Shown here piece by piece: positions 33,509 to 63,480 of a stretch of 64,000 nt of DNA. The notes below the pieces were generated by a model, which did not search any database, was not told where the DNA came from, and saw only the letters and a program-made list of their open reading frames with translations. The translations under genes and the position numbers were made by a program. This DNA is from Siphonodentalium dalli (Eukaryota; Mollusca; Scaphopoda; Gadilida; Siphonodentaliidae): positions 174,801,692 to 174,865,691 of the forward strand of contig CP136061.1 in assembly GCA_032622095.1 (NCBI GenBank), written 5' to 3'. The number at the start of each line of letters is the position of its first letter. The first letter of the stretch is position 1.

Positions 33509-33795
33509 GGGAGCGTCTCAAAAGTCTTTGCGGAATCCGCAAATATTTTCTGAAACGGTCGAGATTTCCGCAACGCTATCGTCTGAATTTTTCCGCAAAT
33601 GTTCCGAAAAACGCCACGAGTTTTCCACAAAATTACCGAAACGTTACATAAAGATTTCCGCAAACGCCATGAGTTTTCCGCAAAAATTACCGAAATGTTA
33701 AATAAGATTTCCGCAAACATTCCGCTATTTTCCGCAAAGTCCGTAACGTCGACATTGCGGAAAGTAATTTTCCGAAAATGTTGAAAATTCATGAT
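33509..33795. mobile_element. Left end of a TTA-flanked element with TCCGCAA words
   Basis: Begins after TTA with GGGAGCGTCTCAAAAGTC, close to the ends of elements C and D. TCCGCAA then occurs about seven times in 200 bases, with CCGAAA variants between. The matching right end is not found; the sequence changes to a different word array at about 33796. Confidence 0.65.
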
Positions 33796-34640
33796 GGGGG
33801 ACTGGACTCCTCGCCGGAAGTAAATTTCGCCGGAATGGACATTTCGCCGAAAGTCATTTTCGACAGAGTGATAGTTCGCCGGAATATTATAATCACGTAA
33901 TTAGTCATTAGTGAAGACTGATTGACATAGGTATTATAATCCTGCGAACTGCTAATTAGTCATTAGTGAAGACTGTTTGACATAGGTACTATGAAAACAA
34001 ACTTCGGGCTTCCTTCCTGGCACGTGTGATTATTACCATCATTTGTGTTTTACCGACAATACTGTTACCTGAGGTGTGTTCATATTACATATTACAATTC
34101 ACCCGAAGCCATTCTTCCTTCCTCGCGCATGTGATTATTACCATCATTTGTGTTTTACCGACAATACTGTTACCTGAGGTGTGTTCATATTACATATTAC
34201 AATTCACCCGAAGCCATTGGTGATCCGTAGTAAGTATGTTGTTTTAGCGGTGGTGATCCGTAGTAACTAGGTTTCATATGGTATATATATCACTGGCTTT
34301 ACAACATTTACCATATCATCCAAAATGGATAGAACTACGAATGTTGAGTTGTGTATTGCTTGTCATAAAACTGTGTATGCGCACAATAATGCAATAACTT
34401 GCGATAAATGTCATAAATTTTCAATTGTCCCACAATACACCTCCATATAAGTAAATTTATTTCGGCGAACAGTTGTCTATTCCGGCGAAAAGTCGTATAT
34501 CTCGGGGGAAATGTCTTAAATTACGGCGAATAGTCCCGACATTCGGCGAAGTTGTCGTCGGTTCCGGCGAACTGTCCCAAATCTCGGCGAAGTGTCCGGA
34601 AAATTGGTCCGGCGAAATATACTTCCGCAAATCGTGACGA
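33796..34640. mobile_element. Element with CGGCGAA word arrays at both ends
   Basis: The left part (33805-33880) repeats TTCGCCGG or TTTCGCCG; the right part (34455-34620) repeats CGGCGAA in the opposite sense, at least seven times. The centre holds a 105-bp tandem duplication. The inverted arrangement of one short word matches the style of elements A, C and F. Termini are not defined. Confidence 0.6.
34010..34218 (+). repeat. Tandem duplication, 105-bp unit
   Basis: GTGATTATTACCATCATTTG starts at 34026 and again at 34131, with 88 or more identical bases in each copy. Confidence 0.95.
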
Positions 34641-35397
34641 TAACGTCGCAATAAATCTCAAGACAAGACGCATCACAAACGCGCACCTGACACACAAGGC
34701 ATTAAAGGGATTGTTAATCAGCACTGTAAATATAATTGCTCGAATCAACAAACAAACGTGCTATATTTTAATATGATCATTCAATACACTGTAGGCCTAT
34801 CCACAGTTATAAACTCTTCTATCATTACGATAGTTTTATCAGAATAGTTTTACTATTATCGTTTTATATACCCAATATACTGGGGTGCTTCTCACCTAAA
34901 TGAGGGATTTCCATAACAAGCAATTAGCAAGTGTCCACTTAAACCGCGGTGCGGTTTGTGTTTCCACCGCGGCCGAACTGCAACAACATCACGGCCACAC
35001 CGGCTAACTGCAATTGGTATACTTGCCTTTCGGCCGTGGTGTACTTGCCGTTTTTAGAATGATGTTGAAAAACACAAAGAGGGCACTATAAATGTGGTTT
35101 GATTGAGCCCATTGTTTAGCCAGACGATCTATTCAGTGTGTTGGAGATCTGATACGTCAGGCGACAAGGTGTGATAATCTAGTATATCTGTATATAGTCG
35201 ACGTCCTACCGGTATACTAAATTAAATTACACTAATTTAAACTATAATTATTTGGTTTGAAATTACATTGACTACATCCGTCCATGTGGGCCTCCTTTTG
35301 GAATTTACTGCCGGCCAGAATTTTCTTCACAATAAAAAATAAAGAGCGTTTGTGCGTGGTAAGGTATGTTTCGCCCGCGAACATTTTATGAACCTAA

Positions 35398-36345
35398 GGG
35401 GCTTGTTACATGAGCCGGGACAACTCGGACTGCCAGGACAACTCGGTCGCGCTGTTAAATGAGTCGAGACAACTCGGTCAACCGGGACTACTCGGTTGAC
35501 GTGCACAAAACTAGCTGTCAATCACCGAGTCACGGCGTAATGTGGGTGGTCACAGGCCTTAATATTCCCCACAACTCACAGCGTTTACCGATGTCCCCAA
35601 ATTATAGAAATGTCCTCAAATTAGAAGGCACATTTGACAAAATGTCACCGCAAAATCACCCTTTTTATGACCTGTTTGTGTGTGTATATTGCTTCATTTG
35701 ACCACAACAAATCAACTTTCTAACTTTTTTCAGGTTCACATATACATGTACATGTAGTTAGATTAAATTATTTAATTGGAAATACCCATGAACAGTGTGT
35801 TGGTGGACTGCTTGGTGAACTTTCAAGCACCATACATCTATAAAATGGCTTTGTTGATGTCAAATGATCCAATATTCCCAATATTCAATAAATTGTGACC
35901 TACAAAACTTGAAAATGTAAGGGTAATATAACTTGCTGAATGCTGAAACAAGCCCAAGTTGCCAGGAAATGATATGGGGGCCATTGGTTCATTTCTTTCA
36001 CCTTTCATATGCTTCATAAACAACCAGACAGCCCCCATTTTAGGCTCACTTTAAAAAAAAATTCTCCCCGGGGAAAACCCCGTACCCCCAATAGTCACTA
36101 GGGGGTACACCCCACCCTCGCAAACCCACCACCTCGGTCCCCCAAAATGTCCCCAAATTAGCCTAATCTAAAGGCCTGGTGGTCATTAGACGTTATTCAC
36201 ATGATGCGAACATTCTATTGGCTGACGTCATGAAAGTCACAACGAATCGTGTAACGTTCCATGTCTAGCCGGGATGACTCGCTGTTAGCATAGACTAAAA
36301 ATCCTTCCTTCATGTATGCTGTTACATGGACCAAGTTGTCCCGGC
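35398..36345. mobile_element. Element G: TAA-preceded element with GACAACTCGG words
   Basis: Begins after TAA with GGGGCTTGTTACATGAGCC, then repeats GGGACAACTCGG, GGACAACTCGGTCG, GAGACAACTCGGTC and GGGACTACTCGGTTG. Near its right limit AGTTGTCCCGGCTA is the inverted word. The right terminus appears to be cut off by the LINE 3' end at 36345. The interior (35930-36180) is C-rich non-coding sequence. Confidence 0.6.
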
Positions 36346-38985
36346 TATTCAATTCAACTCAATTAAGTTTATTCTGGTCGTCAATTATAGACATTACAGA
36401 AGAGTTGTATACATAAATACAATATTGGAGTTAAATAGAGCGGCTAATTTATAAGTGTTTGGTCTCTGATAGAAGTAGGGTTTCAGATATTTTATTCTTA
36501 GTTTGCTAAGGGAGCATGTCAAAACCTCTTTCGCATATGCGAAAATATTGTCGAAAAAGTTTTGACGTAAATGTGCAAAAACGAAATGTTGGAAATGACG
36601 AAAAATAATGCGATAACATCGAAAGCGACTGGCCATAAAAGTGCGATAACGTCGAAACCACAACAGACCAAAATTTATGTAAAATGTCGAAACGTTCGAC
36701 AACTCAAAAGTCGCGACGTCGAACCATTGATCGATATTCGCAAACGACGAAAAGTTAAAACATCGATACGATGTTGTCGCACTTCATAAATTCGCGCATT
36801 TATTTTTGCCTTCTGCGTAATCAGATGCCAGCTGAATTTTTATTGGCTGAATTATGAGAAGGAAAATAAAGTACAGCCAAAGGCCATACAAACAACTCTA
36901 TGCGGTTAACACACAAGTACAACGACTTGACAGTTCGACTGTTTTGATAGCTATGAGTTCGCACGAGTCCTAATTGAACAATATAGTCAACCCATTCCAA
37001 ATGTGTGAAGGGGTGACATTTAGCAAAAGGCTATACAAACATATAGGCCTACTGACATATAATGACGTATGCCGGTCCTCACAACTATGCGTGGACTGTG
37101 CGACAGTTTTGTTGTTGTTGTTGTCGTGATGTCTTCTCAATTAGTGAACAATGGTTTAACTCGTTGGACAAAACCAACACATCTGATATATGAAATTCCA
37201 AAATGAAGCGATTTGATGTCATAATATCAGTTCGATCATGGCTAGAAACAGTGATGAAATCGTTAGCGGACATATGCGCAGTTGGGAAAATATTAGACCA
37301 GCAGTTTACACAGGTCGACAGTACGAAGAAGTTATGGTTTTCACAACCCCAGGTATCACACATCTAACAGAAAAAAGATGAAATCACACAGAAATTTGAA
37401 ACCAGCTGCACCCACCCACAACGGGAACGACAACCGTCCATCCAGCATTTGAAGCAATAGGCCCGATATAGAACAAGCCCTCATCACGTTGTATCAACGC
37501 CAGACAAATATGTATAGAGAGAGAGCCATACCCCATAAGTTCATTGTTTTATAATGGTATGTATATCATTATCCATGTTTTTATTATTCATTCAATAAAG
37601 AATCGAGAAAAACATAACACTCAACTCCTCTGCCAGTCAATGCTACCCACAGACGAAACTAGGGTTGGCCTGGGAAATTACAGTGCTAAATATAGCACAA
37701 CATAACACGTGCAATTCGTGGAAATTTCAAACTATTCTATATGTTTTATATTAACTTAACTTTGTCGCATCTGATCGCTGATATATATCGAATAAAATGT
37801 GTAGATTTGAAATAAAAGTCGCCGACGAATTAATCATGATAACGCTGCGCTCCGATATCTATCTAACAATGATTTCATACTTAAATTGCGAAAATGGATG
37901 CATTGTTTACAACAAAACCACCACCGGGTTTACGGTACTTTCAGAATGCCATAGACTAAAACGAGAATGCCACGATGCCGTAAACATTAATATATGTGTC
38001 CACATTAAAATATGTGTCTGGTCTAGAAAGACAGATTGAAACTGTAGAAATTAACTCTACGTGGCATACGGAAAGTATACTATAAATCGGGGTTGTGGAA
38101 TAATTTATTGTCGTCCTCGGCTGTATTCTTTTATTCATAATAGTTCGCACAATTAAATGGTGACGGTTTACCCAAAATGAAGACAAGTTACATAATCACA
38201 CACAAAAACGATTTTCGAAATCAAAATTTGCATTGTTTACGATACCACTCTGCAGTATTAATGCGACGGTGTAGCAATTATTGCACGAGATAAACCAGTG
38301 ATACAATATCACTGCTGTAAACCCACAGATTTGCGGCCACCGTTTGACATCAAAACGTAGGAAATGATTGTGTAGGCCTATCCTATTATATAAATTGGGT
38401 CTGGGAATCATTTATTTGGGACTTTAATCTTCTATTAATAATAGTGACTATGACTATGGAGTATTTATTGAACACAAACTGTCCTGCCAATCATATCGAC
38501 ACAACAGCAATATTGACGAAAATAATGCTGCGATCTTGACGAAAACAAACACTGCGAAAATATGTCGAAACAGAACAACGAACATTTGAGCAAAACTGCG
38601 ACAATTGCGAAAACATTGAACCAAGACAGCGAAAATGACGAAAACGTACAACGTTACGGCGTGCGATAATGACGAAAAACTCTGATAATGTCGGAAAAAA
38701 CAACGTCAATGACGCCACATTTTTCGCAGTTTTATCGCATTTTTTTCGCATATGCTCCCTAAGTTCCCTACAATTCAGTACCATGTGGTATTCATCGCCG
38801 ATTTCGAGATTACAGAGAGTGCAGATTCTTTCCGAACAATCCGTAGGCCTGTTCGTCCAAGCGCCGAGATCTTTTGGGAGTTTGTGGTTTCTAGTGCGGA
38901 AAGCTAAATTATTGTGAACTGCTCTATTATCATCAGGGGATATAGGTAATTCTCTCGTTCAAATTTGACTTTATAATCCTGCAAA
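36345..38985 (-). mobile_element. LINE 3' remnant (reverse transcriptase protein C-terminus), interrupted by element D
   Basis: On the minus strand, 38985-38763 encodes FRTRNHKLPKDLGAWTNRP and RICTLCNLEIGDEYHMVLNC, the Cys-rich C-terminal pattern common in LINE ORF2 proteins. The frame then resumes at 36509 with SKLRIKYLKPYFYQRPNTYK and ends near 36394. The 3' end is ACTTAATTGAGTTGAATTGA. Between the two parts sits element D (36510-38759). No RT catalytic motif remains. The clade cannot be fixed from this part. Confidence 0.82.
36510..38759. mobile_element. Element D: DNA transposon, TAA duplication, GTCGAAA-like words
   Basis: TAA at 36507-36509 precedes GGGAGCATGTCAAAAC, and GCATATGCTCCC is followed by TAA at 38760-38762. 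Both ends share GCATATGCGAAAA; the right end lacks a few bases present at the left. Words such as GTCGAAA, TGACGAAAA and GCGATAA recur through both ends (36545-36780 and 38495-38735). Removing the element and one TAA restores the LINE frame on both sides. A three-base TWA duplication points to PIF/Harbinger, though no transposase or Myb-like protein is encoded here. A second copy of the family lies at 46295-46811. Confidence 0.82.
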
Positions 38986-38989
38986 ATGC

Positions 38990-40140
38990 GAATCTGCTTG
39001 TACAGCGTAAACCGGAACCACCCAGCGTGCGGTGTATTATGGGAATTGGTGAAATCGAGCATTGTTGACCACCATTCTTGAATGTATATTCAAATCTTTT
39101 CAATAGTTACTATAAAGACAAAGTCGCGGGGGCATCGTGCCAGTGGACTTTTGATTAAACTTGAAAGAGAATATCGCCGAGAAAGTGACATACAATCATG
39201 TTCAAACAACGGTATACGATGTAGCAAACCATGTTCATTGCTACACAGCAAACCATGTTCATTGCTACACAGTCCTCGTGCCAAATTTCTGAATAATTAA
39301 TGCTGACGTAATTCGCGTGCACCTGGCTTTTGAGAGATACAGATGCGCGCAAAAATAACGGTGATTAACAAGTTCCCAATCAGGGGTTTTATTGGCTTGT
39401 CAAAGTTACCCAAGTGTGTCAGTGTATTACCGGCTTATACTGAGATTTGTACTCAATTTCTACCCATGCCGTTGCTGACGGAATTATTAATTGAAGGTCA
39501 CATTAATTTTCGCAGTTGAATTCACACAACATGTCCAGAAAAAAGTGGTCGGATTAATTTTAATGGACATGTCTTCCAATGCAAATCGCCTGAGTAAATG
39601 TTACAGTTGCAAATATAGTTGGGTGTGACTTAATAATGCAGTATTGGGAACAATACGTATTTATCTGCCTGAAGATACATAATAGAATGTTGGTCTATTT
39701 TTCAATTTAAAAAAAATCAAGTGTAGCCGTATTAAAGAAAACAATATTCATTTACAGTAGGCCTACTTATAACTAGTAGCCCATATATGCACGTGTACAC
39801 TTGTCAGTTAAATATGACTGCTTCGCGTATAACCTTTGCACAGGAGATTTGTATCAAAATTTCCTGCGCTCTTTAGTTTTTACCATCCATCAGGATTCAT
39901 GAAAAAACTACGAAACGCTCTTTATTAAATTGTTAGGAGTAAAGCCAAATTAATGCCGGGACCTAATGTATCTAAAATGTAATATGCAAATAAGTGTTTC
40001 GGAAGATAAAAAATATGTCATTCTATGGCGATAACTAGATTTGAAAATTGTCAGTATTATATACTATTACGACTGTATTAGGTTCCCCTACTTGCGAAAA
40101 GGTGGGGGGGGGGTCCACAATAGGCAACATATATCATATA
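38990..40140. other. Intronic stretch with small repeats
   Basis: Holds a 24-bp direct duplication at about 39223-39272 (AGCAAACCATGTTCATTGCT) and, at 39270-39370, an inverted copy of 6595-6690. Nothing else is recognised. Confidence 0.5.
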
Positions 40141-42163
40141 CTTTAAGTGAAATATAAAGGAACACTACCAGTCGAAGCGCAGATTGACATGAAAACACTA
40201 ACATTCTATTATAATATCTGCCTACAAGAAAACAAATACATAGAAAAACAATTAACCTATCAACAACTACTGATGAAAGATATAAACAGTTGGTTCGTCG
40301 ATGTCAAGAAGATATTGTTCAAGTATCAACTCTCAGCTCCACTTGACCTCCTAAATCAACCATATACAGGACCTGTATGGAAAAAGATGATGAAGAAAAC
40401 CATCACACAGTACAGGAAGCTCTATCTCAACCAACGCAAAGACAGCCAAGAGTCTTCTTTACCTCAACACTGACTCATATAATAATAATAATAATAGAGA
40501 ACATTTATATAGCGCTTTTCCCAAAAGGCCCAAAGCGCTCGGCCACAACACAAGTTCACGCACAAATATGCAATATACAAGTGGGTCACGTAATAAACAT
40601 ATGCAGAACTAAGAGGCATCACTCTCAGGGACGACGTTTCCATAGTAGAATTCGAAAAGTTCCGATTTAAGTAATGTTTTAAAAGTGTCCATGGTATCGG
40701 CTTTCTTTGTGTCGGCCTGTAGCCCATTCCAGACGGACGGAGCATGATATTCAAATGATCGTCTTCCGTAGTTTTCCGAGTCACGTCTAGGAACAGCCAT
40801 CAGATTTAGATCTTCTGATCGCAATTCGCGCGGCGGAGAATACATATTGAGAATAGAGTCAATATAAACCGGCAAAGGCTTTGTGATGTCATTTGAGAAT
40901 TTCTTATAACAAAAAGTGGCACATTTATAATCAATTCGAGCTTCAATTGGAAGATAGTGTAGTTTCGCGAGAAGAGGTGTGACATGGTCAAATTTATGTT
41001 TTCGTAGAGCAATGCGAGCCGAAATGTTAATTATTCTCTGCAGCTTTGCCAATTGATCTTGTGGCAGACCAGCGAATAGAGCATTGCAATAATCCAGTCG
41101 TGAAAATACAAATGAAGAGATCAAAGTCTTCGTGGATTGTACCGACAGATGTGATCACATATGAGAAATACGCCGAAGTTCCAGAAATAAGGACTTGCAC
41201 AGTGTGTTTATATGGGACTTCATGGACAGTCCTTTGTCTAAAATCACTCCTAAATTTTTGTCGTTATCTGAGAATTCGATGTCGGCGCTGCCAATGCGTA
41301 GGGAGGTAACCTTGATAGCTTTTTGATAAGTTTGTTCACCTCCATCCACTGTTTGACTTGCATCACCCCTGACTGCAAATGTGCGAGTTTTAAGTCTATA
41401 TCGCACTGCTTAAAAGAAATGAACATCTGGGTATCATCAGCATACATGTGGTAGCTGATACCGTTACCAGCTATTATGCTTCCGAGAGGTTGTGTGTATG
41501 CCGAATATAAAACGGGTCCCAGAACTGACCCCTGTGGAACACTGTATCGAATAGATTGCGATTTCGAACACGCGTCACCAATCACCACAGTTTGCATCCG
41601 ACCAGTTAGATAAGAAGTGAACCAGGAGAGGACTGTGCCAGAAACTCACAATATCAACCTGGTACACCTCATAAAACTTAAATATCAAAAGAACATCGAC
41701 AGTCGAACTACAGAAGACCATACTGAAGCTGAAATTGGTCACCGATACATATATGCTCCAATACCATAGGCATAAATTTCGCATACAAAACTCCAATGGT
41801 ATCTGCCAATTATGTGACGAAGATGATATTGAAACCAGGGCACATTTCTTGCTACACTGCCCAATATTAGAACCGATAAGATCCAAATTCATACCATCAC
41901 TAGCAGAGGCAACATCTCAACTACTGAATACCAACTTCCACAACCTGTCAGAACCAAATTCAAATTATCATCAATTCCAGTGGTTTTATATCTACTGAAG
42001 AATTCTGCACAGCAGCTGAAGCAATATCCAAGAAGATGATATACTGTCTACACAATGCAAGACACAGAATCCTGAATTGCAATTTTGCAAGCAATCTTGA
42101 GAAATTTTGTCTAGAAACACATCAGTGTGACACACAGACAGATCAAAACAATAAAAACCTTTG
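40141..42163 (+). mobile_element. LINE 3' remnant on plus strand, interrupted by a second LINE
   Basis: 40147-40473 encodes LPVEAQIDMKTLTFYYNIC and further sequence typical of the region beyond the RT domain. After the insertion at about 40480-41640 the homology resumes: NGICQLCDEDDIETRAHFLL then HCPILEPIRSKF (41800-41895), and YCLHNARHRIL (42035-42070), ending at a stop near 42163. The C..C...E..HFLLHCP pattern is standard for LINE ORF2 C-termini. Frameshifts are present, so it is dead. Confidence 0.82.
40480..41640 (-). mobile_element. 5'-truncated LINE of the L2/CR1 type, nested in another LINE
   Basis: Read from 41640 down to 40480: TVLSWFTSYLTGRMQTVVIG, then VPQGSVLGPVLYS and YADDTQMF (RT motifs), then SRLDYCNALFAGLP, RRSFEYHAPSVWNGL and a 3' tail with AAAGCGCTATATAAATGTTC followed by ATT repeats. 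This tail and the SRLDYCNALL signature are typical of the L2/CR1 group. Several frameshifts and the missing 5' half make it non-functional. At most a five-base duplication (ACTCA) is visible at the junctions. Confidence 0.88.
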
Positions 42164-42456
42164 ATACCAAAGATATTTCCATTTTACTTGAAAAAATGGT
42201 TTAAACCTGAAAAGTTAATTTTTGCTGATTTTGTGATAGAAAAATCCAATATTTCTGGTAATGTCTGTGGTAAGAATAGTAACAATTAACCATGGTAGAT
42301 CAGAAATGTTAGATTCAATGTATGCAGGACAGAAAGACCTACTTAGTTCATCAGCCACAACTCGTCGGCAATTGCATGGCACTCTGGGGGAATATTTAAT
42401 TACCATTTTCCATATTTTGGCTGTCATTTTGGTTTCATTGGAATGTTAGTAAGTAA

Positions 42457-45318
42457 GGGACCTTGTCAAATTGCAAGCGGTAAATCCGCCGGAGAACGGA
42501 GTATTTTTCTCCGCTCTCCGCTAAAAACTCCGCTTTCCGGTCAGGTAAATAGCGTAAAACACGGCGGAGTTTATCGTGACGTTGAGCGGGTTATAACGGA
42601 GTTTCCAATGGGAGTTTTTATTACGTTCATCGAGTTTTTGGCGGAGTTTCAAGCGGACTTTTCTTCCGATGTATCCGCTCATGTTTGAGTTTTCCCTAAA
42701 ACTCCGCTTAAGGGGTCATCTCAAAACTCCAATCGGTACCGATTGCCATTTACCGATTGTATTCAAGCCTTTTGAATCGGAAAATAATCGGTAAAGTCAG
42801 ACAGCGTAATCACGTTAGTAGCGTCATTAACGGTAAAACCGATTTTACCGATCAATATCCATGAGTGAACGCATTACGTCGCAGTCGGTAAGTCAATCGG
42901 TGAAATCGGTACCGATTTATTGAAACATTTAACGTTCGATTTGTTGTTGTACATGTATGAAAAAGTTAACGCCGTAGTTGCAAAAACACTCGGTGAAATC
43001 GGTACCGATTGAGACGTTTTATGTTCGATTTTTGTTATAGGCCTACATAGATCTAGGGTCCAGATGGTCGTGGATTTTCCATCGAAAAAAAAATCAGAGT
43101 GGTTTATTTGCATTCTTTTAGGTAATAGGTATTATTAGATTAATTGGCAGTAACAATTATTCTCATCGGAAATATTTTTTTCGTTTCCGAATCCGTACTT
43201 TACATATGCACATAAATTGATAAATTGTATGATTTTCACTCCACTTTCATCTCATATCAATTACCATTTTAGCATAATCTGCATACTCATTCAATTATTA
43301 CTAATTGTTTAACATATTAACGTATTTTATCTGCAATGTATCAGAATGTATTGTGATATTTTCTTCACTGTTTATCTATTCGTTGCGTGATTGGCTGAAT
43401 CCCGTAAAGCTCCGCCCATCGCATGTCGCTCATGTTTACCCGGCAGATTCAAACGTTTTCCTGGTGTGTGTCGCGTTTCTATAATCTTCATGTATCGACA
43501 TATCTAATGTTAATCTCCCCAAATTAATCGCATATATGAATCCAAGTTGCCATTCTATTCCTATGCGAATGGGTCTCCAGACAGGCTGGGGTGGGTTTTT
43601 AATTTGGTTTTTGCTAGATGATCGCGATCTCTCGTCGAGGTTTGGGGAGGGGGGGGGGGCAAAGGTAGTCTATGCATCCATGCTACCGGGCCAGACTGGA
43701 GTAGACTCTTTTTTTTTACGAGATCAATATTGTTACCCATTATATATGGGGTGCTCCTCGTGCAAAGGAGGGACTACAAGAACAGAACACTCTCAGAACA
43801 GAAGGTACACATGCCGTGTGCGGGATCTTGTAATACAGACACTCGAAAGCATGTGTTTGTCAAAACGTAAACAGATTCGTGGTACCTGGCAAGCGCACTG
43901 AGTAGGTATCCGTTTTCAGAGAACCCCGTCATTTTCTTAAAAATTGTTCCGGTGACTCGCTTAAATTGAACATTTTATTCTTTTGAATCACTAATTATGT
44001 TTTAGTTTGGGTAAGGATATCTTTTCTCTATTTGATTTCTTTACAAATCACCAGTGCATGGATCTATTTTTTATCCCAACTAAAACGTGAGTGAGTTGGC
44101 TCTACGACAATTAGTTAAAACTTCAAAGGCGCCAACAATTTAGAGCCTGAAAACTCTCGAAGTCCTACTAGAAGATGCATTTTCAGACTCCCATTCCCAT
44201 GAACAAGGACTCGATAATTGATAATGTTCATAAATAATAACGGTTATTACAGGTTATTAGGTTATGCTTAAATATGACGTAGTCCCCGTGCAGCAGGTGA
44301 CTGATCATGCATGTTCGGTTTGTTTATCTTTGAGCACGTGGTCTTCACACAGCGCGCGAGACTGAAAGCTCACTACGTCACACCGCGTGCATACAGACCT
44401 GTGCGAAGTGTACTGTTGAATTGGGCTGGGGTTATTAATTCGGGGCTGTATATATAATGTTATGATTTGCTCAGCTCAGCTTCATGGGGTGAAGGGGAAG
44501 ATCTCTCGATCTTTTCGACCATCCGAAGCGCCCTTCTACTCTATTGCGAGTCAGCTCAGCCTCATCAACGTGTCGATCGCAAGCAATGGAACGCAGATCG
44601 CTTACTTTACATTAAAATTACAATTACTCATGATCTTTTATCAAGATTTCAAAGTACGTTACAATGTTAAAAATCGCAGTTTCAATATGTTGAATTTATA
44701 TGAGTTAAGTTCACATTGAAATACCGCCCACCACTACAAATTTTTAAGTCCGCTTGTACATTTTGATGATATTCCAGATAATATTATTTTGAGAACTGAT
44801 CTTGTGATATAGTATTCACTTGCCCCAGATATATATAGGCCATGAATCCTGACTGGGTTTTACTATATTTTACTATATCATATAACGATAAGCCAATCTG
44901 TGGACTTTATTTTATACCTAGAGTTTCTCCAGTAGGTTTAAACTAGCGGAGTTTTATACCAGAGTGGCCTTTCAGCTCTGAACCTCATCACTCTCGTCGG
45001 AACGGAGTTTTGTTCTGCAATATTAAACAGCCAGACAGCGGAGTTTACCGCTCCTCTTTCAGCATTGGGCTCATCGGAGATTCTGCTCTCTCCCAGCGGA
45101 GTTTTTATCTAATGACAGCGGAGTTTACCGCTGACGTCGCAGCGGAGTTTTTCACTGTTTTTGCAAATTTTGACGTAATGACCACCGGAGTTTACAGGGG
45201 AGAAAACACTCCGATGTGCGTTGCAATTTCACAAGCGGAGACGGGAGTTTTTAGCGGAGAGCGGAGAAAAATACTCCGTTCTCCGGCGGATTTACCGCTT
45301 GCAATTTGACAAGGTCCC
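42457..45318. mobile_element. Element C: DNA transposon, TAA duplication, GCGGAGTTT word arrays
   Basis: Ends are GGGACCTTGTCAAATTGC and the exact inverse GCAATTTGACAAGGTCCC, flanked by TAA at 42454-42456 and 45319-45321. The terminal inverted repeat extends about 85 bases through CGGTAAATCCGCCGGAGAAC. GCGGAGTTT and variants then recur, about five times on the left (both strands counted) and seven on the right (44945-45190). The interior contains a probable further insertion (42712) and no recognisable transposase. Duplication size and GGG ends suggest PIF/Harbinger. Confidence 0.9.
42712..43060. mobile_element. Left end of a nested GGGG element with TCGGTACCGAT words
   Basis: After TTA/TAA it reads GGGGTCATCTCAAAACTCC, then ATCGGTACCGATT, TTACCGATTG, AATCGGTAAAG and more, over about 300 bases. 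No right end is identified. The following 1.8 kb of element C's interior, including the open frame 43536-43901, shows no known domain. Confidence 0.55.
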
Positions 45319-45763
45319 TAATGGTATGCCTCACTGACATTGCGCAGTTCTGCTCATTTCTTTTTTAAATATGACTAGAATTCCAATGGTCATTTTTTAG
45401 TGAAATCTGACACCACTTTATGTAAAATCAGAATTTTCAGGGACCATAAGGGCTAGGACCCCATGAATGGTGTATTTCATTGCTTCAATTGTCAATTAAT
45501 ATGAACAATAAAAAATAAAGTCACAATTCTCAACCAGTTCCATAGAGCAGAAACAGATCTAGAAGATATTAGTGAAAAAACATCAAATATTCCACTTCCG
45601 GCTGCAATTTTGGCGGCCATCTTGGATGGGGAGTTCCAATATATTGTACTTACAACTGGAAAATATTGACAATCGACACACTGATGTCAATGCTGTCATA
45701 ATTAGTGTATTGTGAGTATCAAATAGTAAGGGGATGTATTTTTATCTTAATTGTTTTCCAAAG

Positions 45764-45903: not shown

Positions 45904-45990
45904 GTGAGTCAAAGTATCTTGTGATTCAGCATTCTCCTTATCACTAAAGCTAGAAGTTCACTCCAGTTTCAGTTCAAATGACCTTCTTAA

Positions 45991-46186
45991 GGTATCATGT
46001 CAAAACTAGATTGGTAATTCCACCGGTATTACCTCTAGGGCCGGTATTACTGTCGGTAAAATAATGCCCAAATCCTTAAACTTATCGGTAATTTCACCCT
46101 TTCTTATGGGTAATTTATTGTCCTGCCATCGGTAATTCTATCGGTAATTTCCCCAGTATTTACACCATTTACTATTGGTAATTTTT
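45991..46186. mobile_element. Left end of an element with CGGTAATT words
   Basis: Begins after TTAA with GGTATCATGTCAAAAC. CGGTAATT, CGGTATTAC and related words occur about nine times in 170 bases before the next repeat starts at 46187. It lies 87 bases after the exon 45764-45903 donor. Confidence 0.55.
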
Positions 46187-46294
46187 AGCTCAACTTTTCT
46201 TGTAATGTTTGAGCTATTGCCATGGCTTGGTATCCATCGTCCGTGTGTGCATCATGCGAGTTTGTGTGGAGACATTCGTCAACAATGTCCATTA

Positions 46295-46811
46295 GGGAGC
46301 ATGTCAAAACCATTTTCACATATGAAAAAATATTGTCCATAATGTCGAAAATGCTAAAGTGCTAAAATGACCCAAAAAAATGCAATGATGTTAAAAGCGA
46401 CTGGTCATAAAAGCTCGTTAACGTTGAAACCACAACAGACTAAACATTTTAGTAAATTATCGAAACTTTCGACGAAGCGTAATTGAAACATTGATCGATA
46501 TTGCGCTAACGACGAAAAGTCCAAACATCGCTGCGATGTTGTTACGCATATATATATGCCTTCTGAAAAATCAGATGTCAGCTGAATTCCGATTGGCTGA
46601 ACTGTGTGAAGGAAAATAAAGGCCATACAAACGACTCTATGCGTTAACACCCAAGTACAATGACTTGACAGTTTTGATAGCTATGAGTTCACATTAGGCC
46701 TAATTAAACAATAGTCAACTTATTCCAAATGTGTGAAGGGGTGACATTTTGCAAAAGGCAATACAAACCTATAATGTATACTGGTCTTTCACAACTATGA
46801 ATGAACAGTCC
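46295..46811. mobile_element. Second copy of the element D family, left part
   Basis: Follows TTA (46292-46294) with GGGAGCATGTCAAAACC and matches D at 36510-36780 and 36870-37095. The repeat it interrupts has an uninterrupted relative at about 60905-60930 (CAACAATTTCCATTAGCA), confirming the left boundary. It is itself cut by element B, and its last bases may continue at 58761. Confidence 0.75.
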
Positions 46812-46869
46812 TATGGCAAGCCGTTTTCACATTTTTGATTTATTTAGACTTAAGTCCAATTCATCTTGT

Positions 46870-47189: not shown

Positions 47190-49110
47190 TTAGCTCAACT
47201 TTACTTTGTTAAGTTTGAGCTATTGCCATGGCTTTGTCGTCCGTGTGTACGTGATGCGTCAACAATACAGGCTACAGGTCGTACCAGCGGCCATCTTGGA
47301 TTTCAAAATCAATCCATTAGCACGGGCTACAGGTCGTACTGTTCGTCCTATCATCATGAAATTTGTCATGGATGTTAACAATGACATGTAGATGGGATCG
47401 AGTCATTTTGGGTTCTTTTGGCCAAAAAACATGACCCCTAGCAGCCATCTTGTGTTTTACTCTTTGGATGACTAAATTCTTTGGCACGGGCTACAGGTCG
47501 TAGCTTTTGTCAGATCATCATGAAATTTGGCATGGATGTTAACAATGACATGTGGATGGCAATCGAGTCATTTTGGGGTAATTCGGCAAAAAAACATGAC
47601 CCCTAGCAGCCATCTTGGATTTCACTCTTTGTATTACTAAATCCTTTGGCACGGGCTACAGGTCCTAACTTTGGTCAGATCATTATGAGTTTTTTTGGGG
47701 TTATTCGGCAAAAAAACGTGGCCGCCAGCAGCCATCTTAGATTTTACTGTGTGTGTGACTAAATCCTTTACTGCTCATTTTTAGCTCAACTTTACTTTGT
47801 AAAGTTTGAACTATTGCCATGACTTTGTCGTCCGTCGTCTGTGTGTGCGTGTGTGTGTGCGTGATTCGTCAACAATTTCCTTTAGCACGGGCTACAGGTT
47901 ATACCTTTGGTCGGATCATTATGAAATAAAAAATCATGGCCACCAGCGGCCATCTTGGTTTTCAAAATTCAATCCCTTAGCACGGGCTACAGGTTGTACT
48001 GTTCGTGTGATCATCATGAAATTCGTCATGGATGTTAATATTGACATGTAGATGGGAACGAGTCATTTTGGGGTCATTCGGCAAAAAAACATGGCCGCCA
48101 GCAGCCATCTTGGATTTTACTCTTTGCATGACTAAATCCTTTGGCACAGGCTACAGGTCGAAGCTTCGGTCATATCATTATGAAATTTGTCATGGCTGTT
48201 GACATTAACATGTAGATGGGAACGAGTCATTTTGTGGTCGTTCGGCCAAAAAACATGGCCACCAGCAGCAATCTTGGATTTTACTCTTTGCATGACTAAA
48301 TCCTTTGGCACGGGCCACAGGTCGTAATTTTGGTCAGGTCTTCATGAAATTTTTATTGGATGTTAACAATGACTTTTAGATGGGAACGAGTCATTTTGGG
48401 GTCATTCTGCAGAAAAACATGGCCGCCAGGGCCGCCAGCAGCCATCTTGGATTTTACTCTTTGCATGACTAAATCCTTTGGGCACAGGCTACAGGTCGAA
48501 GCTTTGGTCATATCATTATGAAATTTGTCATGGCTGTTGACATTGACATGTAGATGGGAATGAGTCATTTTGGGGTCATTCGGCAAAAAAACATGGTCAC
48601 CAGTGGCCATCTTGGATTTCAAAATTCAATCCATTAGCACGGGCTACAGGTCGTACTGTTCGTCCTATCATCATGAAATTTGTCATGGATGTTAATATTG
48701 ACATGTAGATGGGAACGGGTCATTTTGGGGTCGTTCGGCCAAAAAACATGGTCACCAGCAGCCATCTTGGATTTTACTCTTTGCATGACTAAATCCTTTG
48801 GCACGGTCTACAGGTCGTAATTTTTGTCAGATCTTCATGAAATTTGTCATGGATGTTAACAATGACATGTGGATGGGAACGAGTCATTTTGGGGTCTTTT
48901 GGCCAAAAAACATGACCCCTAGCAGCCATCTTGGGTTTTACTCTTTGGATGACTAAATTATTTGGCACGGGCTACAGGTCCTAACTTTGGTCAGATCATT
49001 ATGAGTTTTTTTTGGGGTTATTCGGCAAAAAAATGTGGCTGCCAGTGGCCGTCTTAGATTTTACTCTGCATAACTAGGCCTTTTAACTTTTCACGTTCCT
49101 ACTCACTCCA
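47190..49110 (+). repeat. 175-bp-type tandem satellite, block 2
   Basis: About ten units containing AGCCATCTTGGATTTTACTC, TTGCATGACTAAATCC, CACGGGCTACAGGTCG and GACATGTAGATGGGAACGAG. Spacing measured at 47455 and 47630 gives about 175 bases. Heads reading TTAGCTCAACTTTACTTTG occur at 47190 and 47781. Confidence 0.9.
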
Positions 49111-52100: not shown

Positions 52101-52329
52101 TTTGAGCTCAATCGGCATTCCGTGGAATTTCCCAGTCACCAACATGGCGTAATTTTGGTACATATATATAGAGACCAATTGTCCATCGGCTGTCATGTGT
52201 AGTAAAGATGTCTTATAAGCCGACATTGCCGTGGGGATGCCCGTTCCTACACGCGTTTTCGATTCTATGAAGTACCCACATATATACACACATACATATA
52301 TATATATATACTAGAAGGTGACCCGACTT

Positions 52330-52640
52330 CGTCCGGGCTATTCAAAAACCAAATTTCAAGTCGATTGCTCCACCCGTTTCCTAGATCTGGTCTGCGCATG
52401 CGCGAAGCTGGTGTCGCACGTGCTCGGCGACCCGATAAAATTTGTATCCGGGGCAAGATACATTCACATACCAAATTTAAAGTCAATATCTCAACCCGTT
52501 TCCGAGATCTCGTCTGCGCATGCGCGAAGCTGGCGTCGCACGTGCTCGGCGACCCGATAAAATTCGTATCCGGGGCAAGATACATTCACATACCAAATTT
52601 CAAGTCGATAGCTACACCCGTTTCCGAGATATATAGCCCA
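52330..52640 (+). repeat. Tandem repeat, unit about 126 bp
   Basis: Three partial units with GTCTGCGCATGCGCGAAGCT, CTCGGCGACCCGATAAAAT and GCAAGATACATTCACATACC. Related units occur at 53920-54180. The open frames at 52318-52715 are artefacts of this repeat. Confidence 0.88.
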
Positions 52641-54230: not shown

Positions 54231-54895
54231 TATTTCGAGCGATAACAATTGTCAGACTCCCATCGTGAACCTCAACACGAAGTAAACACGTGTTTCGAGC
54301 GATAACATTGCATTGAAGTCAGACTCCCATCGTGGACCCCCAAGACGACGTAAACACGTGTTTGTTCCCGTATAACTCTGGAGACTCTGACTTCATATAT
54401 ATATATAATGACGTTATTAACCGCGGCTGTGCCGTTTGAGCTGATTTTAATGACTGGGAGTGGAGTACGGGTGCTCGGAGCTTCTGGAAAACGCGTGGAC
54501 GACATCGTACGTGTATTTTACCTCTAGATGGGAAGTTTGAGCTCAATCTGTCCAGCCGTTGTACTATTTCGAGCGATAACAATTGTCAGACTCCCATCGT
54601 GAACCTCAACACGAAGTAAACACGTGTTTCGAGCGATAACATTGCATTGAAGTCAGACTCCCATCGTGGACCCCCAAGACGACGTAAACACGTGTTTGTT
54701 CCGGTATAACTCTGGAGACTCTGACTTCATATATATATATAATGACGTTATTAACCCCGGCCGTGCCGTTTGAGCTGATTTTGATGAATGGGAGTGGAGA
54801 ACGGGTGCTCTGAGCTTTTCTAAACCGCGACCACGGTCGTGTCGGTGGGATTTGACACTTACATAGGAAGTTTGAGCTCAATCTTTACACGCGTT
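54231..54895 (+). repeat. Tandem duplication, unit about 334 bp
   Basis: TATTTCGAGCGATAACAATT starts at 54231 and again at 54565. Both copies continue through TCAGACTCCCATCGTGAACC and GACGTAAACACGTGTTTG. The minus-strand open frames at 54272-54505 and 54606-54881 are near-identical because of this duplication. Confidence 0.92.
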
Positions 54896-57539: not shown

Positions 57540-58335
57540 CTAAATTGTGCAGGAAAAATATTATAGCATGGTGTGATTTCAAATAAAATCTTATGATTCG
57601 CGTAAAGCTCTAAATAAAAAAACTGAATTGTACGAGTATATATAGCAGTCATGTGAATTTGGTTGTTTATGAATGAAAGTCGGAACTTGAAGTTGAGCAG
57701 TAGCACTAGCACCGATATCGATTATCGGTAGTGCAAATTCACCAGCTCACGGAAGGAAGAATATTGTATATTTTATAGTAACAAGCTTCCAGTTGCTTAA
57801 TCAAGTTACAGACTTCACAAACTGAACATTAAACAATTCTATTTGAGTGCGCATCATTTGATGTTTTAGAAAGAGGTCGCCACCGATTGCACGAAAATAC
57901 GTTGGGTATGTTGACGTTTCTAAGGACGCTGTCGCTAACAACGGAAACCAGCTGGGTGCATTTTATTGATGCTCCATAACGTGGTTACCATCAAGTGACG
58001 TCACTCACGAACTGCTGGAGGTCAAGTTGTGCTCGTATAACGCCATTTGTGTAACCTAAATCGGTCAAGGGGCTGAGAAATGGCATGAGTTCCCTATTTG
58101 AACCCATCTGGACAGTGACAATTTTTGGATCGGGTGTATGTAAAGAGTGCCTTGGTTGCCACCCTACAATTAACACCCTTTGTTTCACATAAATATAAAT
58201 ATTTATGAATAAGGAATGGATTGGGGAGGGGAAGGTCACCGAAACTGATAGTGATACAAATATGTTTAGCATTAGTTTCCACCAAATTCATACATACGTT
58301 CTTCATCAATGATACGATGAATCAAATAATTGGTT
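57540..58335. other. Right interior of element B, mostly unrecognised
   Basis: Contains one copy of the GGCCATTTTGGATCGG-type unit at about 58070-58190 and otherwise no gene or repeat that I can place. Confidence 0.45.
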
Positions 58336-58769
58336 CTCAGTCTTAAATAGATAAAAGTCCAAATATTTGGACTGAAGTCCAAATATTCATTCAATTCTGA
58401 CATGACTGAATTACATGGCCATTATCCCACAACTCCGCCCTATGAGCAAAACCAGACCTGCTTAATATCTGATGGGGGTGTTTCTTATACAGTTGAATTT
58501 CACTTAAGTGCAAATGAATTGTACTTAAGTCCAAATACCACATAATTGTGAATTCGGCGAGAAATTGGACTTAAGTCCAAATAGATGAAAATATCAGTAT
58601 TTACACTTAAGTATAATTCATTTGCACTTAAGTACAATTCCTCGCCAAATCACAATTATGTGGTATTTGGACTTAAGTCTAATTATTTGGACTTAAGTCC
58701 AATTATTTGGACTTAAGTCCAAATAAATTGAAAATGTGAAAACGGCTTGCCATACAGTCCAACAGTTTT

Positions 58770-59280
58770 AGCTCACCTGAGACGAAGTCTCCGGTGGAGC
58801 TATAGTCATCACTCCTCGTCCGTCATCCGTCCATCCGTCAACAATTCTTTGAACATTTTCTCCTCTGGAACCGTAAGACCGAATTGGTTCATATTTGGTG
58901 TGGATGTTCCCTAGGTGACTCTCATTCAGATTTGTTCAAATGAGGTCACTGGTTCAAATAGATGCGAAACCAGGGCCATAACTCTATTCCTCCTTAGTAA
59001 TTCTTGTCCAGAACCATTGGACCGATTTAGCTAATATTTGGTATGGAGGGTCCTTGGGTGACTGGTGTTCAGAATTGTTCAAATGAGGTCACCCGGTCAA
59101 TTAGTTGAGAAACCAGGGCCATAACTCAGTAATTCTTAGAATGACTTCTAAAAAAATATTGGGCCGATTTATCTTATATTTGGTACGGAGGGACCTTGGG
59201 TGACTGGGGTTCAGATTTGTTCAAATGGGGTCACTGGGTCAAATAGGGGCAGAGCCAGGGACATAACTCTGAATTTTTTT
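58770..59280 (+). repeat. AGCTCACCTGAG-family repeat, copy 5
   Basis: Full head plus three internal units, very close in layout to copy 1. It starts ten bases after the CAGTCC duplication of element B. Confidence 0.88.
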
Positions 59281-59715
59281 TTACATTTTTGCATTTTGAC
59301 CTTTGATTTTTTTTAGACACATCACAGCTACCCCACCCCACCCTTCCCCACCCCACCTCCTGTCCCACCACGCTGTACCATACCATATTATCTCTGCCTA
59401 TTTCACCCCATTAAAATCCTTGTTTTGATTGCAGCTGTAGGAGTAACACAAAGCTGTTTGTGCAGTCGTTAAAACCTAATTATCTAAATGTCAACACCTC
59501 TCCTCAAGACATACTGGTAGCTGATAGTGGTTTCATGAATGGAATTTAATCCCAGAGAATGTACTGGCTTTCAAGGTCATGGGAATTTTGTTAAGCTAAT
59601 GTAGTCAGGCATTCAAATAAATCATGTATGTCATATTCTCGCAGGGATGTCCCCACAGTGTTGGGGGGGGGGGGGGGGGTGATTGACAGATCTGTTCAAT
59701 GAAATGTAATTTTGA

Positions 59716-60200
59716 AGCTCACCTGAGATGAGGCTATAGTCATCACTTCTCATCTGTCACCTGTTCATCTGTCTGTCCTGTCCGTCCATCCATTTGTCAA
59801 CAATTCTTTGAACATCTTCTCTAGATCATAAGACTGAATGGGTTCATATTTGGTGTGGATGTTCCCTAGGTGACTCACATTCAGATTTGTTCAAATGAGG
59901 TCACTCTGTCAAATTGTTGTGAAGCCAGGGCCATAACTCTTGCCCTCCATAGTAATTCTTAAAAACGACTTCTCGTGTACCATCAGGTTGAATGGGTTCA
60001 TATTTGGTATGAAGGGTCCTTTGGTGACTAGTTCAGATTTGTTCAAAAGGGGTCACCTGGTCAAATAGGGCCCAAGCAAAGGACAGTTTTCCTCTTAATA
60101 TGCTTCCTTCACACGGACCATCAGGTTTATTTTACTGATATTTAGTATGAAGGGTTCTTTGGTGTCTGGGATTCAAATTTATTCAGATGGGGTCACCAGG
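59716..60200 (+). repeat. AGCTCACCTGAG-family repeat, copy 6
   Basis: Head partly deleted (AGCTCACCTGAGATGAGGC), then units with TTCATATTTGGTGTGGATG and TTCATATTTGGTATGAAGG. It follows a long G run at 59662-59681. Confidence 0.85.
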
Positions 60201-60617
60201 TTAAATAACTATGTCTCTATAGTAATACTTCAAATGTCTTCTCAAGAGAGGTTGGACTATTTAGCTTACATAAAGTATGGAGGATCCTTTAGTGACTGCA
60301 TGAGATTCAGATTTTTTAACCCGTTAAGAAATGACAGGGGCTATGGGGACTTAAGACTTTTGTGTCTAATAAAATCATTAAAATACAAAATTCATTAAAA
60401 CATCTACCTTGGAACTACCTGACTGATTAATCTGACATACATATAGTGTTTTTGGATCCATGGATAATTGGGCTTTAAACATGTCTAAATGGTTTTATAA
60501 AAAGGCGCTTGTGAGATTGGAAATTTCCAACAAATTGAGAAAGTTTGAGATGTTGTTTGTGAAATTCCAACCTAAGACTTGGGAGTCTGGAGCCCGGTTG
60601 GGAGGGGACATGTTGAG

Positions 60618-60648
60618 CTGGGGGGGGGGGGGGGGGGGGGGGGGGTGA
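60618..60648 (+). repeat. Poly-G run of about 26-27 bases
   Basis: The longest of several G or C runs (also 9328-9350, 14322-14338, 43650-43660, 59662-59681). Its length is likely uncertain in the assembly. Confidence 0.9.
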
Positions 60649-60754
60649 TCAGTAGTGTACAGTTGGTAATTTAAAGGTAGATATTCACTGACAACATACA
60701 TGAAGCCTCTCTAGCCACATATCCTGTTTAGATCTAACTCTTTTAAAGTGATTA

Positions 60755-61310
60755 TGAAAAGTTCTGACTGTTGTGGTCTCCAGAGTTCCAGTCTTATCAG
60801 TCTTTGCAGTCTGGTGAGCGACCCCACAGTCTTTGACTTCTTCTTAAGTAATGTTGGAGCTATTGCCATGGCTTGTTGTCCGTGTGTGTGTGCGTGGAGA
60901 TGTCCATCAACAATTTCCATTAGCATGAGCTCATTTTGGGGTCATAGGGCCAGAAAACATGGCCGCCGATGGCCATTTTGGATTTCAAAATGCAATCCAT
61001 TAGCACGGGCTGCATGCCGAACTGTTTGTTTCATCATCATGAAATTTGTCATGGATGTTAATATTGACATGTAGATGGGGACGAGTCATTTTGGGGTCAT
61101 TCAGCCATAAAATATGGTCACCGGAAGCCATCTTGGATTTTACTCTTTCCAATACTAAATCCTTGGGCACAACCTACAGACCACATCCCTCATATGATCA
61201 TCTCCATCCTTCATATGGATCATCGGAGTGACCTCTAGATGGGAGCTATAAAATGTTTTGAATTTCATTGGAAAAAATTGTCACCAGCAGCCATCTTGGA
61301 TTTTACTTTA
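60755..61310 (+). repeat. 175-bp-type satellite, block 3, with upstream dispersed repeat
   Basis: 60755-60840 matches the short repeat at 10.9 and 25.6 kb. It is followed by GTTGGAGCTATTGCCATGG and satellite units (GCCATCTTGGATTTTACTC, GACATGTAGATGGGGACGAG). Confidence 0.85.
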
Positions 61311-61319
61311 TATATATAT

Positions 61320-62030
61320 CTTTTTTTTTATATATTGACTTGATTCTAGTATTACTTAAACATGCTGTGGAACATGATTGCAGGACGTTGGTTGGTTGAA
61401 ATTATGTCACTTGAGATCACACTCGGACCCTACTTGCTTTCATTAGTGGAAGGTGTCTAATATTGCACCGTACACGGTTTATATACTCTTGAGACATTCA
61501 CTTCGTATTACCTACCTTTCTTATGGTTACTATACTGTGCAGGCAAATTGATGTTTTCCGCATTCCTTACCAATCCATTGGCTGTAATGTATGACATTAT
61601 GTCCTCTTCCAAGTTAAGCTATATGGTGTCATGACACTTTCAATTACTCAATCTTACAAATTTGAAGATATTTTAATGTTGATTTTAATGATGTAAAACA
61701 GTGTAGCACAATTTTATTTTTGGAGATTTTTCTACACAGAGTATGAGAAATGACAATGATAACTTCTTCATTGCTGCATGAACAATGTGTGACGTTATGG
61801 CCATTTTCCAGTGGAATAATATAACAGGAATATCACAAAAACACTAAACCTGACTCCGTTGAAAGGCTATTATCAACAAATCCTGGAACATCATACACTG
61901 GTTGGTGTGTGGAAGTAGATCCGTTCACAGTAAGGACAATACAGCACACAGCATGACATTTGACATCCATAATGTTGATACACAAAAGCGTGCTTTTAAT
62001 AATTTGAGGCTAACAAAACCATCTTTGTTT
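61320..62030. other. Intronic stretch before the last exon
   Basis: No open frame or repeat partner recognised. It ends in the T-rich acceptor region of the exon at 62038. Confidence 0.4.
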
Positions 62031-62037
62031 TACTTAG

Positions 62038-62208
62038 GAAAAAGAAGAGACAACAGGACCAGGTGTTGAATTTCAATCAGAGGCAGAAGTTGTTGCCAAA
62101 GAAGATATTGATGACACAAACAAAGGAAAATATGATAACAAGGAGAACATGAATGAGATAGAGGAGAAAGAAGAACAAAACTCAAAAGATAACATGGCAA
62201 ATGAGGAG
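62038..62208 (+). CDS. MDN1: Midasin (MDN1) internal exon, acidic segment
   Basis: A 57-codon exon, phase 0 in and out, with acceptor TTTACTTAG and donor GTATAA. It starts EKEETTGPGVEF, continues QSEAEVVAKEDIDDTNKGK, and ends EEQNSKDNMANEE. The block TGPG followed by an acidic stretch and (E/L)VAK(D/E)D matches the order seen in midasin after the KLDxxxWG block. Composition is extremely Glu/Lys/Asp/Asn rich and probably disordered. The intron before it is about 16.1 kb, of which 11.9 kb is a single apparent transposon insertion. The rest of the acidic region and the C-terminal MIDAS/VWA domain would lie beyond 64000. Confidence 0.92.
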
Positions 62209-62265
62209 GTATAATAACAACCATTCAATTATTCTATCAAAAATTACAATGCACAATTTATTTTA

Positions 62266-63480
62266 GGGGTCGTGTCTTAATGCAAAACCGATAACCGACC
62301 GATAGCCGATGTATATCGGTTAAACCATCGGGCGACCGACGTGACGTCGTCGTGAAAAACGCCCGATGGTTCGACCAATGGATTGACCGATGGCGACGTT
62401 CACAATAACCGATGCGTCAGTATTTGATCGATGGACTTAAATTACGACGTCATATCGTCATAATTGTAAGCGAGTGCTATGCGTATTACTCTTTGTATCC
62501 AATCCACGAAGGGAACGGGGTGACTGGACCGGAGAAACTCGCCCCGACGATGATTTTGTATTACGTGTTCGGGACGACTTGTCTCATGTGGATGGTCATT
62601 TAATAATTCTTTGTTTGTATGGGTTTTTATGAGTTATTTTATTTGTATATTGAATTATATCTTGACTTTCATTATCACTTCAATTAAATCAATGTGTGCT
62701 GGAATACAAGGATTTCCTTCACGAGACAGACTGTGCATTGCAAAATGTTGTGTAGGCCTAAACACAATCATAACTGTCTGCTAATTACAAAACATTGTAT
62801 AAACACAATTGTAATACGACCCTGCCTAACTATGCTTAAAAGCCATGTCCTGATTGGCCAGTGGCCCGGGTTACCATGGCTATCTCGTTCCAGTTTTGTG
62901 GTACAATTCTACTTTTTTCCAATTGTACCACGAAAAAAATCGGTTTATTCAGATCGCCGCACGCGACTTTTCCCGTCTTTTCTAACTCCGCGCAAACGGA
63001 GCATCAACGGAGTACACCCGCACCCGTAACCCTTTGAATTTTGCTACATCTTGACAATCTTGCGAATTTTCTAGCGATTTGTCGCTTGAAAGTAGTTTGG
63101 TTGCCAATGAATATGGTCCAGATGATGTTATGGTATATTGATATATGTTACGACCAAAGAAAGTTACTTAATAAGTATATTAAATGACAAAATAAATCGG
63201 TAAAATTGTATTTTCCATTGGGCCGATCATATTCGATATTTCGGAATCAAGTTGAAACTGAAAGCGTTTGTTCACCAGAAGGGAAATAAGATTAGTTTAG
63301 TAAACTAGATCATTTTGATCGCTTTGTGTAAGGAAAATGGTCCATAGTCGATGATCATATTCATGTTGCCCCAACAACGGTCAACACAGAAATGACCGCA
63401 ATATAAGTGAGTAGATGGGGCGCGAAACGCCCGGGATGGTCGAAAAGATTGAGTGATCTTCTCCTTCACCCCATAAATGA
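62266..63480. mobile_element. Left part of a GGGG element with CCGAT words
   Basis: Preceded by TTA (62263-62265), it reads GGGGTCGTGTCTTAATGC, then ACCGATAACCGACCGATAGC, ATCGGTTAAACCATCGGGC and further CCGAT/ATCGG words to about 62435. Bases 63425-63480 are a reverse-complement relative of 44485-44535 inside element C (GGGGTGAAGG, TCTTTTCGACCATCC). The right end is not found and may lie outside the window. Confidence 0.55.

Follow-up and report, generated by a model that had tools for sequence, protein, structure and literature searches.

A 64,000-nt stretch of contig C1 of the scaphopod Siphonodentalium dalli (C1:174801692-174865691; hereafter the window) carries several members of one group of transposable elements whose outer ends are nearly constant and whose short subterminal repeated words differ among families. 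The elements insert at TAA or TTA with a 3-bp duplication and have inverted outer ends, and different words stand on near-identical terminal inverted repeats (TIRs), which largely bears out the central idea of a preliminary description of this DNA. We read them as non-autonomous PIF/Harbinger-like (PHIS) DNA transposons in which the repeated words would be binding sites, in multiple copies, for a DNA-binding partner specific to each family, and we give this reading a probability of about 0.6. The genome searched comprises 2.23 Gb in nine contigs; comparison stretches taken from the rest of it bear L numbers (L028-L069), and heads and families in the window are named by the position of their start.

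Across the genome, the end pattern TWAGGGNNCNTSTCAAAA matched 1983 times (996 + 987), and the reversed control matched six times (3 + 3). The 100 matches listed all lie on C1, between 30.9 and 163.8 Mb, and include 35 adjacent facing pairs less than 12 kb apart. The target-site duplications (TSDs) of the two ends agree in 35 of 35 pairs, both being TAA or both TTA; since the pattern itself forces TWA, only the agreement on TAA versus TTA is informative, and ends paired by chance would match in roughly half of cases. Among the same listed matches, 33 of the 35 pairs have one 11-nt TIR type at both ends, and the paired elements measure 1.56 to 10.45 kb, with size clusters near 2.02, 2.6 and 5.2 kb. 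The TIRs start with GGG or GGT, and the base before the TSD varies, being C in only some of the copies inspected by eye. When 5’ ends of the 42457 family were searched without forcing the duplication, TAA or TTA preceded GGG in seven of eight copies and TTG in one, and the TSDs of four full copies of this family (L045-L048) agree at both ends. Copy numbers outside the 42457 family rest on the end pattern. A single composite tandem repeat was rejected because empty sites exist, and TTAA elements such as piggyBac and Kolobok were rejected because the duplications are TAA or TTA.

Eight starts in the window (33509, 35398, 36510, 42457, 42712, 45991, 46295 and 62266) had been described as resembling one another, as transposon ends, and as each followed by an array of its own word. 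Seven of them share a head pattern and 35398 lies outside it. The loose form TWAGG-TGTCAAA matches these seven on the + strand and also position 45318 on the - strand, where the 42457 element has its 3’ end; in 20 order-2 Markov simulations of the window it gave no match in 19 and a single match in one. This pattern was derived from the same heads, so the test within the window is circular and the genome-wide test is the independent one. Full relatives or empty sites support 33509, 36510, 42457, 42712 and 46295 as ends, 45991 and 62266 are ends by head likeness only, and 35398 belongs to the interior of 33509-family elements. As for the words, six-mers with enrichment scores above 6.6, the higher value from two simulated windows, occur in the array regions of seven heads (TCCGCA/CCGCAA, ACTCGG, GTCGAA/CGAAAA, CTCCGC/GAGTTT, ACCGAT, ATTACC and CATCGG); 46295 shows none. 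The starts had been placed correctly, but the end assigned to the whole set, 63480, matches no feature found.

The change of word on a near-constant TIR was seen in heads taken from the window, from flanking sequence (60 kb) and further loci, and from the 12 places that were fetched. In total, 21 heads were assembled and 18 compared, the L056 5’ end, L066 and L052-9039 being left out as near copies. The TIR GGGGTCATCTCAAAAC is followed by ATCGGTACCGAT (the ATCGGT word) in 42712, L058 and L065, and by TATCGGGATCCCGATA-type palindromes and TTTCCCGATA (the CCCGATA word) in L052-9039, L066 and L067; the reverse form of TTTCCCGATA-type words is found in L068 and L054-5922. Between 42712/L058 (ATCGGT) and L067/L068/L054-5922 (CCCGATA) the TIRs are identical at 16 of 16 positions. 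The TIR GGGACCTTGTCMAATT carries the word GCGGAGTTT in 42457 and, by eye, TCGGAGTTT with a CCGACGGAATTTCCGTCGG palindrome in L054-1917 (TIR identity 15/16), and the TIR GGGGTCGTGTC carries the CCGAT word in 62266 and GGTAATT in L046-287 (14/16). L067 versus L068 was not counted as a word change, as the two are possibly the two ends of one family; the same-strand words described below predict that they are.

Inside the TIRs, the stretches from 40 to 240 of the ATCGGT and CCCGATA heads, whose TIRs are identical, align with z scores of 0.6 to 2.8, and those of the 42457 ends and L054-1917 with 2.4 and 6.0, but a low z alone is no proof of a word switch, as opposite ends of one family can score equally low. 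The 33509 and L067 families agree at 12 of 16 TIR positions and have an alignable common backbone (z 9.9; 138-148 identities in 185-199 aligned columns in six pairwise alignments). At two or three homologous places, CCGAAA sites of the 33509 family read CCGATA in the L067 family. This is suggestive of an in-register word change between the two families; because the sites are few and a TTTCCG core common to both arrays aids the alignment, the change is not proven. A broader proposal would be a modular end code, in which a fixed catalytic end is joined to a replaceable, CpG-bearing, strand-oriented word array that is recognised by a rapidly changing protein with a DNA-binding or anti-silencing function, and in which families are born by in-register word replacement on an old backbone; we consider this rather unlikely.

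Arrays are present at both ends in all four families read at both ends. The 12 fetched places were chosen to span the TIR types, not at random, and by eye five of them hold clear arrays (L058 and L065-L068) and three hold worn relics of known families (L061-L063). About ten other stretches of the window without group heads also exceed 6.6, and several of these are simple repeats, tandem or palindromic. That such repeats reach similar scores would suit a neutral origin, in which drifting, family-specific arrays without function would arise close to the ends by slippage and tandem duplication. Some arrays are indeed partly tandem duplicates (a 53-bp unit at 33609-33718), and duplication preserves orientation within one array. 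However, in L056 TCCGCAA is found 8:0 and 11:0 on the two strands at the two ends (19:0 in total), and one word on one strand at both ends is hard to obtain from two ends that drift separately. Palindromes next to the TIR and CpG enrichment also recur across families, and we regard a purely neutral origin as very unlikely.

The palindromes consist of a palindromic or near-palindromic word pair directly behind the TIR in five of the eight heads in the window (33509, 36510, 42712, 45991 and 46295). When 4000 stretches were drawn at random from the window, a fraction of 0.018 to 0.09, depending on the head, had a palindrome as good; by this measure three heads have none. The ratio of observed to expected CpG exceeds 1 in 16 of 18 heads, several of which come from one family, and is 0.82 in the whole window. 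Worn copies look CpG-depleted by eye.

The words of some families lie on the same strand at both ends. Of the four families read at both ends, 33509 and 36510 show this clearly, 42457 shows it less strongly and the ATCGGT family does not show it; the sites counted are not independent of one another. The four words of the 36510 family (GTCGAAA, GCGATAA, GCGAAAA and GACGAAA) count 6:0 and 9:0 at the two ends in the window (15:0) and 10:0 and 8:0 in L057 (18:0), with the reservation that two of the four were picked after the first strand data. GGAGTTT-type words, among which nested words count twice, give 6:5 and 13:0 in the 42457 element of the window (19:5) and 10:4 and 13:1 in L045 (23:5). The ATCGGT family has 3:5 and 5:5 (8:10). 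This strand rule is not explained by the docking of a partner protein, and it resembles the arrays of VANC21 motifs, which are reported to lie in one orientation at high density and to evolve as tandem repeats (PMC5735166). Alternatively, the words may serve an anti-silencing or chromatin factor in the manner of VANDAL/VANC: CpG-rich motif arrays, often on one strand, would attract a protein that prevents methylation of the element, and the word might change so as to track this protein or evade recognition by the host. The same-strand words in L056, in the 36510 element and in L057 would fit such a role, as would the CpG enrichment and the apparent CpG depletion of old copies. A candidate protein was not found, though; the ATCGGT family lacks the strand bias, and the palindrome, where present, lies directly beside the TIR, which fits transposition better. 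We think an anti-silencing role unlikely.

The assignment to PIF/Harbinger draws on the 3-bp TAA/TTA duplication and on the short TIR starting with G, that of 42457 being longer (84 nt). The TSD of the PIF/Harbinger superfamily is TWA, hAT elements duplicate 8 bp and end differently, and VANDAL elements are Mutator-like elements with longer TSDs. Autonomous PIF/Harbinger members encode a DDE_Tnp_4 transposase (PF13359) and, in a second ORF, a Myb/SANT domain, and Zator is linked to the ISAzo13-like transposase PF07592. In this group the flanks and empty sites show a 3-bp TSD, which speaks against membership in Ac/Ds (hAT) and, by the length of the duplication, in VANDAL. PIF/Harbinger elements are described as making a 3-bp TSD, usually TAA for mPing (PMC2836001), and PHIS TIRs as usually beginning with A or G, about 93% of them being under 60 bp (PMC4482050). 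Zator elements are reported to have 3-bp TSDs as well (PMC10045372), and a PIF transposase was not found inside the elements read, so that the group could be Zator-like or belong to another superfamily with 3-bp TSDs. The agreement on TAA or TTA and the G-initial TIR are nevertheless in line with what PMC2836001 and PMC4482050 describe for PIF/Harbinger, and we judge the Zator-like assignment decidedly unlikely.

Insertion into TAA or TTA duplicates those 3 bp. If the elements are PIF/Harbinger-like transposons, the outer 11-16 bp would be the cleavage site read by shared or closely related transposases, for which reason it would hardly change. The palindrome beside the TIR and the array would together be the multimerised sites of a second, family-specific DNA-binding protein, and this protein, such as the Harbinger Myb/SANT protein, would load the transposase. 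In a new family the word, and presumably its protein too, would change while the TIR stays.

Several observations weigh against this reading. Two of the 12 fetched places (L059 and L060, both matching the genome pattern) have no array and two (L064 and L069) are ambiguous; with five clear arrays and two absences, arrays are not missing from most copies, as they might have been, but the absences are not trivial. Opposite ends within the 36510 family also align poorly (z 3.0 for the window 36510 end against the L057 3’ end, and 1.9). Same-strand words at both ends are not predicted by a simple mirror-symmetric transpososome. Finally, neither a transposase nor a Myb/SANT gene was recognised in the elements read. 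L056 holds no open reading frame (ORF) of more than 104 aa, L057 and L045 hold none of more than 129 aa, and the longest lie in the word arrays; a 198-aa ORF in L049 has no Pfam match, and nine selected ORFs, scanned against Pfam, yielded neither a transposase nor a Myb/SANT match. By eye, none of 17 listed C1 matches to PF13359 falls inside the 35 paired C1 elements, a weak test with 6 of the 17 within the listed stretch.

PF13359 is common in this genome, where the best 150 of 910 candidates were scored. Thirty PF13359 loci contained no group ends, and a position weight matrix run over these and six 8-kb loci found none. Comparison by tblastn of 34 ORFs from PF13359 loci with the window and L045-L055 (L056-L058 were left out) returned nothing at E 1e-3. 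TIR pairing around PF13359 loci yielded one element (L043, 485-5333; TIR TATAGCCTCTATCGGTAAATGAG), which was rejected as not belonging to this group and which we take to be ISL2EU-like.

Several known systems resemble the group, and the earlier statement that no named system is like it goes too far, since the Ac/Ds hexamers, the 9-bp motif of Harbinger3_DR and the VANDAL/VANC arrays are close in principle. PIF/Harbinger and Tourist-type miniature inverted-repeat transposable elements (Harbinger3_DR, Ping/mPing) are alike in the TAA/TTA duplication and the short G-initial TIR. Harbinger3_DR is also alike in its subterminal motif of 9 bp, which is reported to be bound there by a Myb-like protein (PMC9710019), the arrays here being putative binding sites; the Harbinger Myb-like protein is further reported to be required for transposition (PMC9710019, PMC2836001). 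Unlike PIF/Harbinger, the elements studied here yielded no transposase or Myb gene, fall into many word families in one genome, measure 1.6 to 10 kb and have same-strand arrays in some families. Ac/Ds of maize combines a short common TIR with repeated CpG-bearing subterminal words, but it uses one word for the whole family and not many. Its AAACGG hexamers are reported to bind the transposase, and non-autonomous members to keep the TIR and the hexamers around unrelated filler (PMC3260210). VANDAL/VANC of Arabidopsis has dense one-orientation arrays of a short family-specific motif that changes between relatives (PMC5735166); unlike here, the motif lies in non-coding parts of the elements and the VANC proteins are known, none being seen in our elements. 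According to PMC4482050, NuwaI TIRs usually begin with GGG and NuwaI duplicates CWG, and NuwaII makes a 3-bp TNA duplication and prefers TNA between C and G. NuwaI is thus alike in the GGG start and unlike in the duplication, and NuwaII is alike in the 3-bp TNA duplication, but C precedes the TSD in only some copies here.

The principle is therefore known from Ac/Ds, Harbinger3_DR and VANDAL/VANC, and what looks new is its extent within a single genome, together with the strand rule. In the open-licence literature, judged by titles and the starts of abstracts, no paper was found that describes numerous word families sharing one TIR within a single animal genome, although this says little about whether such a description exists. 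It is an open question how one transposon family gives rise to several that can no longer mobilise one another. With about two thousand strict ends, near-constant TIRs, different words and one backbone common to two families, change in a recognition code becomes countable here. That some families keep their arrays on one strand at either end calls for an explanation beyond simple transposase docking.

In the window, the 33509-family element (33509-40161, +; TIR GGGAGCGTCTCAAAAG, word TTTCCGCAAA) aligns in BLAST pieces from 33506 to 40161 with L056 (C1:163371531-163376768), a full relative that shows 33509 to be a real terminus; its 3’ end was not found within the window. The 5’ TIR, the palindrome TTTGCGGAATCCGCAAA and the TCCGCAA array occupy 33509-33775 (+). 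GGCGAA/TTCGCC arrays at 33811-34620 (+) are internal to the family, their left part being present in L056 too, and a separate nested element was rejected there because L056 carries the same sequence. At 35398-36345 (+) a head-like GGGGCTTGTTACATGA with GACAACTCGG words has, by eye, an inverted arm near 36270-36345. This sequence is also found inside L056, with CAA where the window has TAA; since it is inherited within L056 as well, it does not count as a separate terminus in this copy, but may be an old nested element. The complete 36510-family element (36510-38759, +; TIR beginning GGGAGCAT, TSD TAA/TAA) is an insert in the 33509 element: at its empty site L056 is uninterrupted with a single CAA, and the window has TAA on both sides.

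The complete 42457-family element (42457-45318, +; TIR GGGACCTTGTCAAATT, word as given above, TSD TAA/TAA) has 84-nt TIRs that are 96% complementary. A genome query with 255 bp of its head, for which the best 40 of 359 candidates were scored, gave 40 long matches of 97-100% identity, values that are biased upward because the scored copies are the best candidates; at least this subset of the family is probably young. By eye, the scored copies lie mostly in the middle parts of contigs. Inside this element lies the remnant of a GGGGTCATCTC/ATCGGTACCGAT element (42712-44121, -) whose other end is deleted. At the empty site L045 reads AACTCCGCTTAA followed by GTTTATATT, and the window reads AACTCCGCTTAA followed by GGGGTCATCTC. 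The 42712 head is present in all eight inspected copies of the 42457 family and missing from the longer copies L045, L046 and L049. Positions 589-2036 of L058, a full relative of 42712, align to 44121-42709 at 94% in reverse orientation. These data show that 42712 is a real terminus and belongs to an old insert carried by part of the 42457 family.

The remaining members are single ends or worn copies. At 45991-46187 (+) lies one end, recognised by likeness, with the TIR GGTATCATGTCAAAAC and the word CGGTAATT (GGTAATT six times on the + strand and never on the - strand), and at 62266-62465 (+) another, also by likeness, with the TIR GGGGTCGTGTCTTAAT and the word CCGAT (six + and two -); the other end of neither was found in the window. 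A worn, truncated 36510-family copy at 46295-46773 (+) matches L057 at 77% over 46365-46773 and at 85% over 46285-46351. About 100 bp examined at 14510-14610 (-) is likely an old 42457-family end, with a position weight matrix score of 17.3 and, by eye, similar subterminal text. Nesting is also apparent in L054, where, at 1917 and 2125 (-), one group element seems to have entered a TAA within the terminal array of a second; L056 contains a stretch similar to the L054-1917 site but without the interruption.

Other repeats lie nearby. A piggyBac-type transposase is spread over several reading-frame pieces at 18444-20259 (+), two scanned pieces of which match DDE_Tnp_1_7, and likely remains of a non-LTR retrotransposon lie at 40609-41645 (-), with a match to RVT_1 at 41250-41645. 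A 164-bp unit is repeated in tandem about ten times at 47311-49004, with related stretches in L046 and in other parts of the window. AT-rich palindromic word arrays without group ends (TTACTTAAGTAA, TTGGACTTAAGTCCAA) lie at 24034-25320 and 58344-58725. Palindromic CpG words (ATACCGCGGTAT, CTACGAGATAACTCGTAG) occur at L028 2466-2800 and L036 990-1310 in small elements or arrays that have other ends, so that arrays of words may extend beyond this element group.

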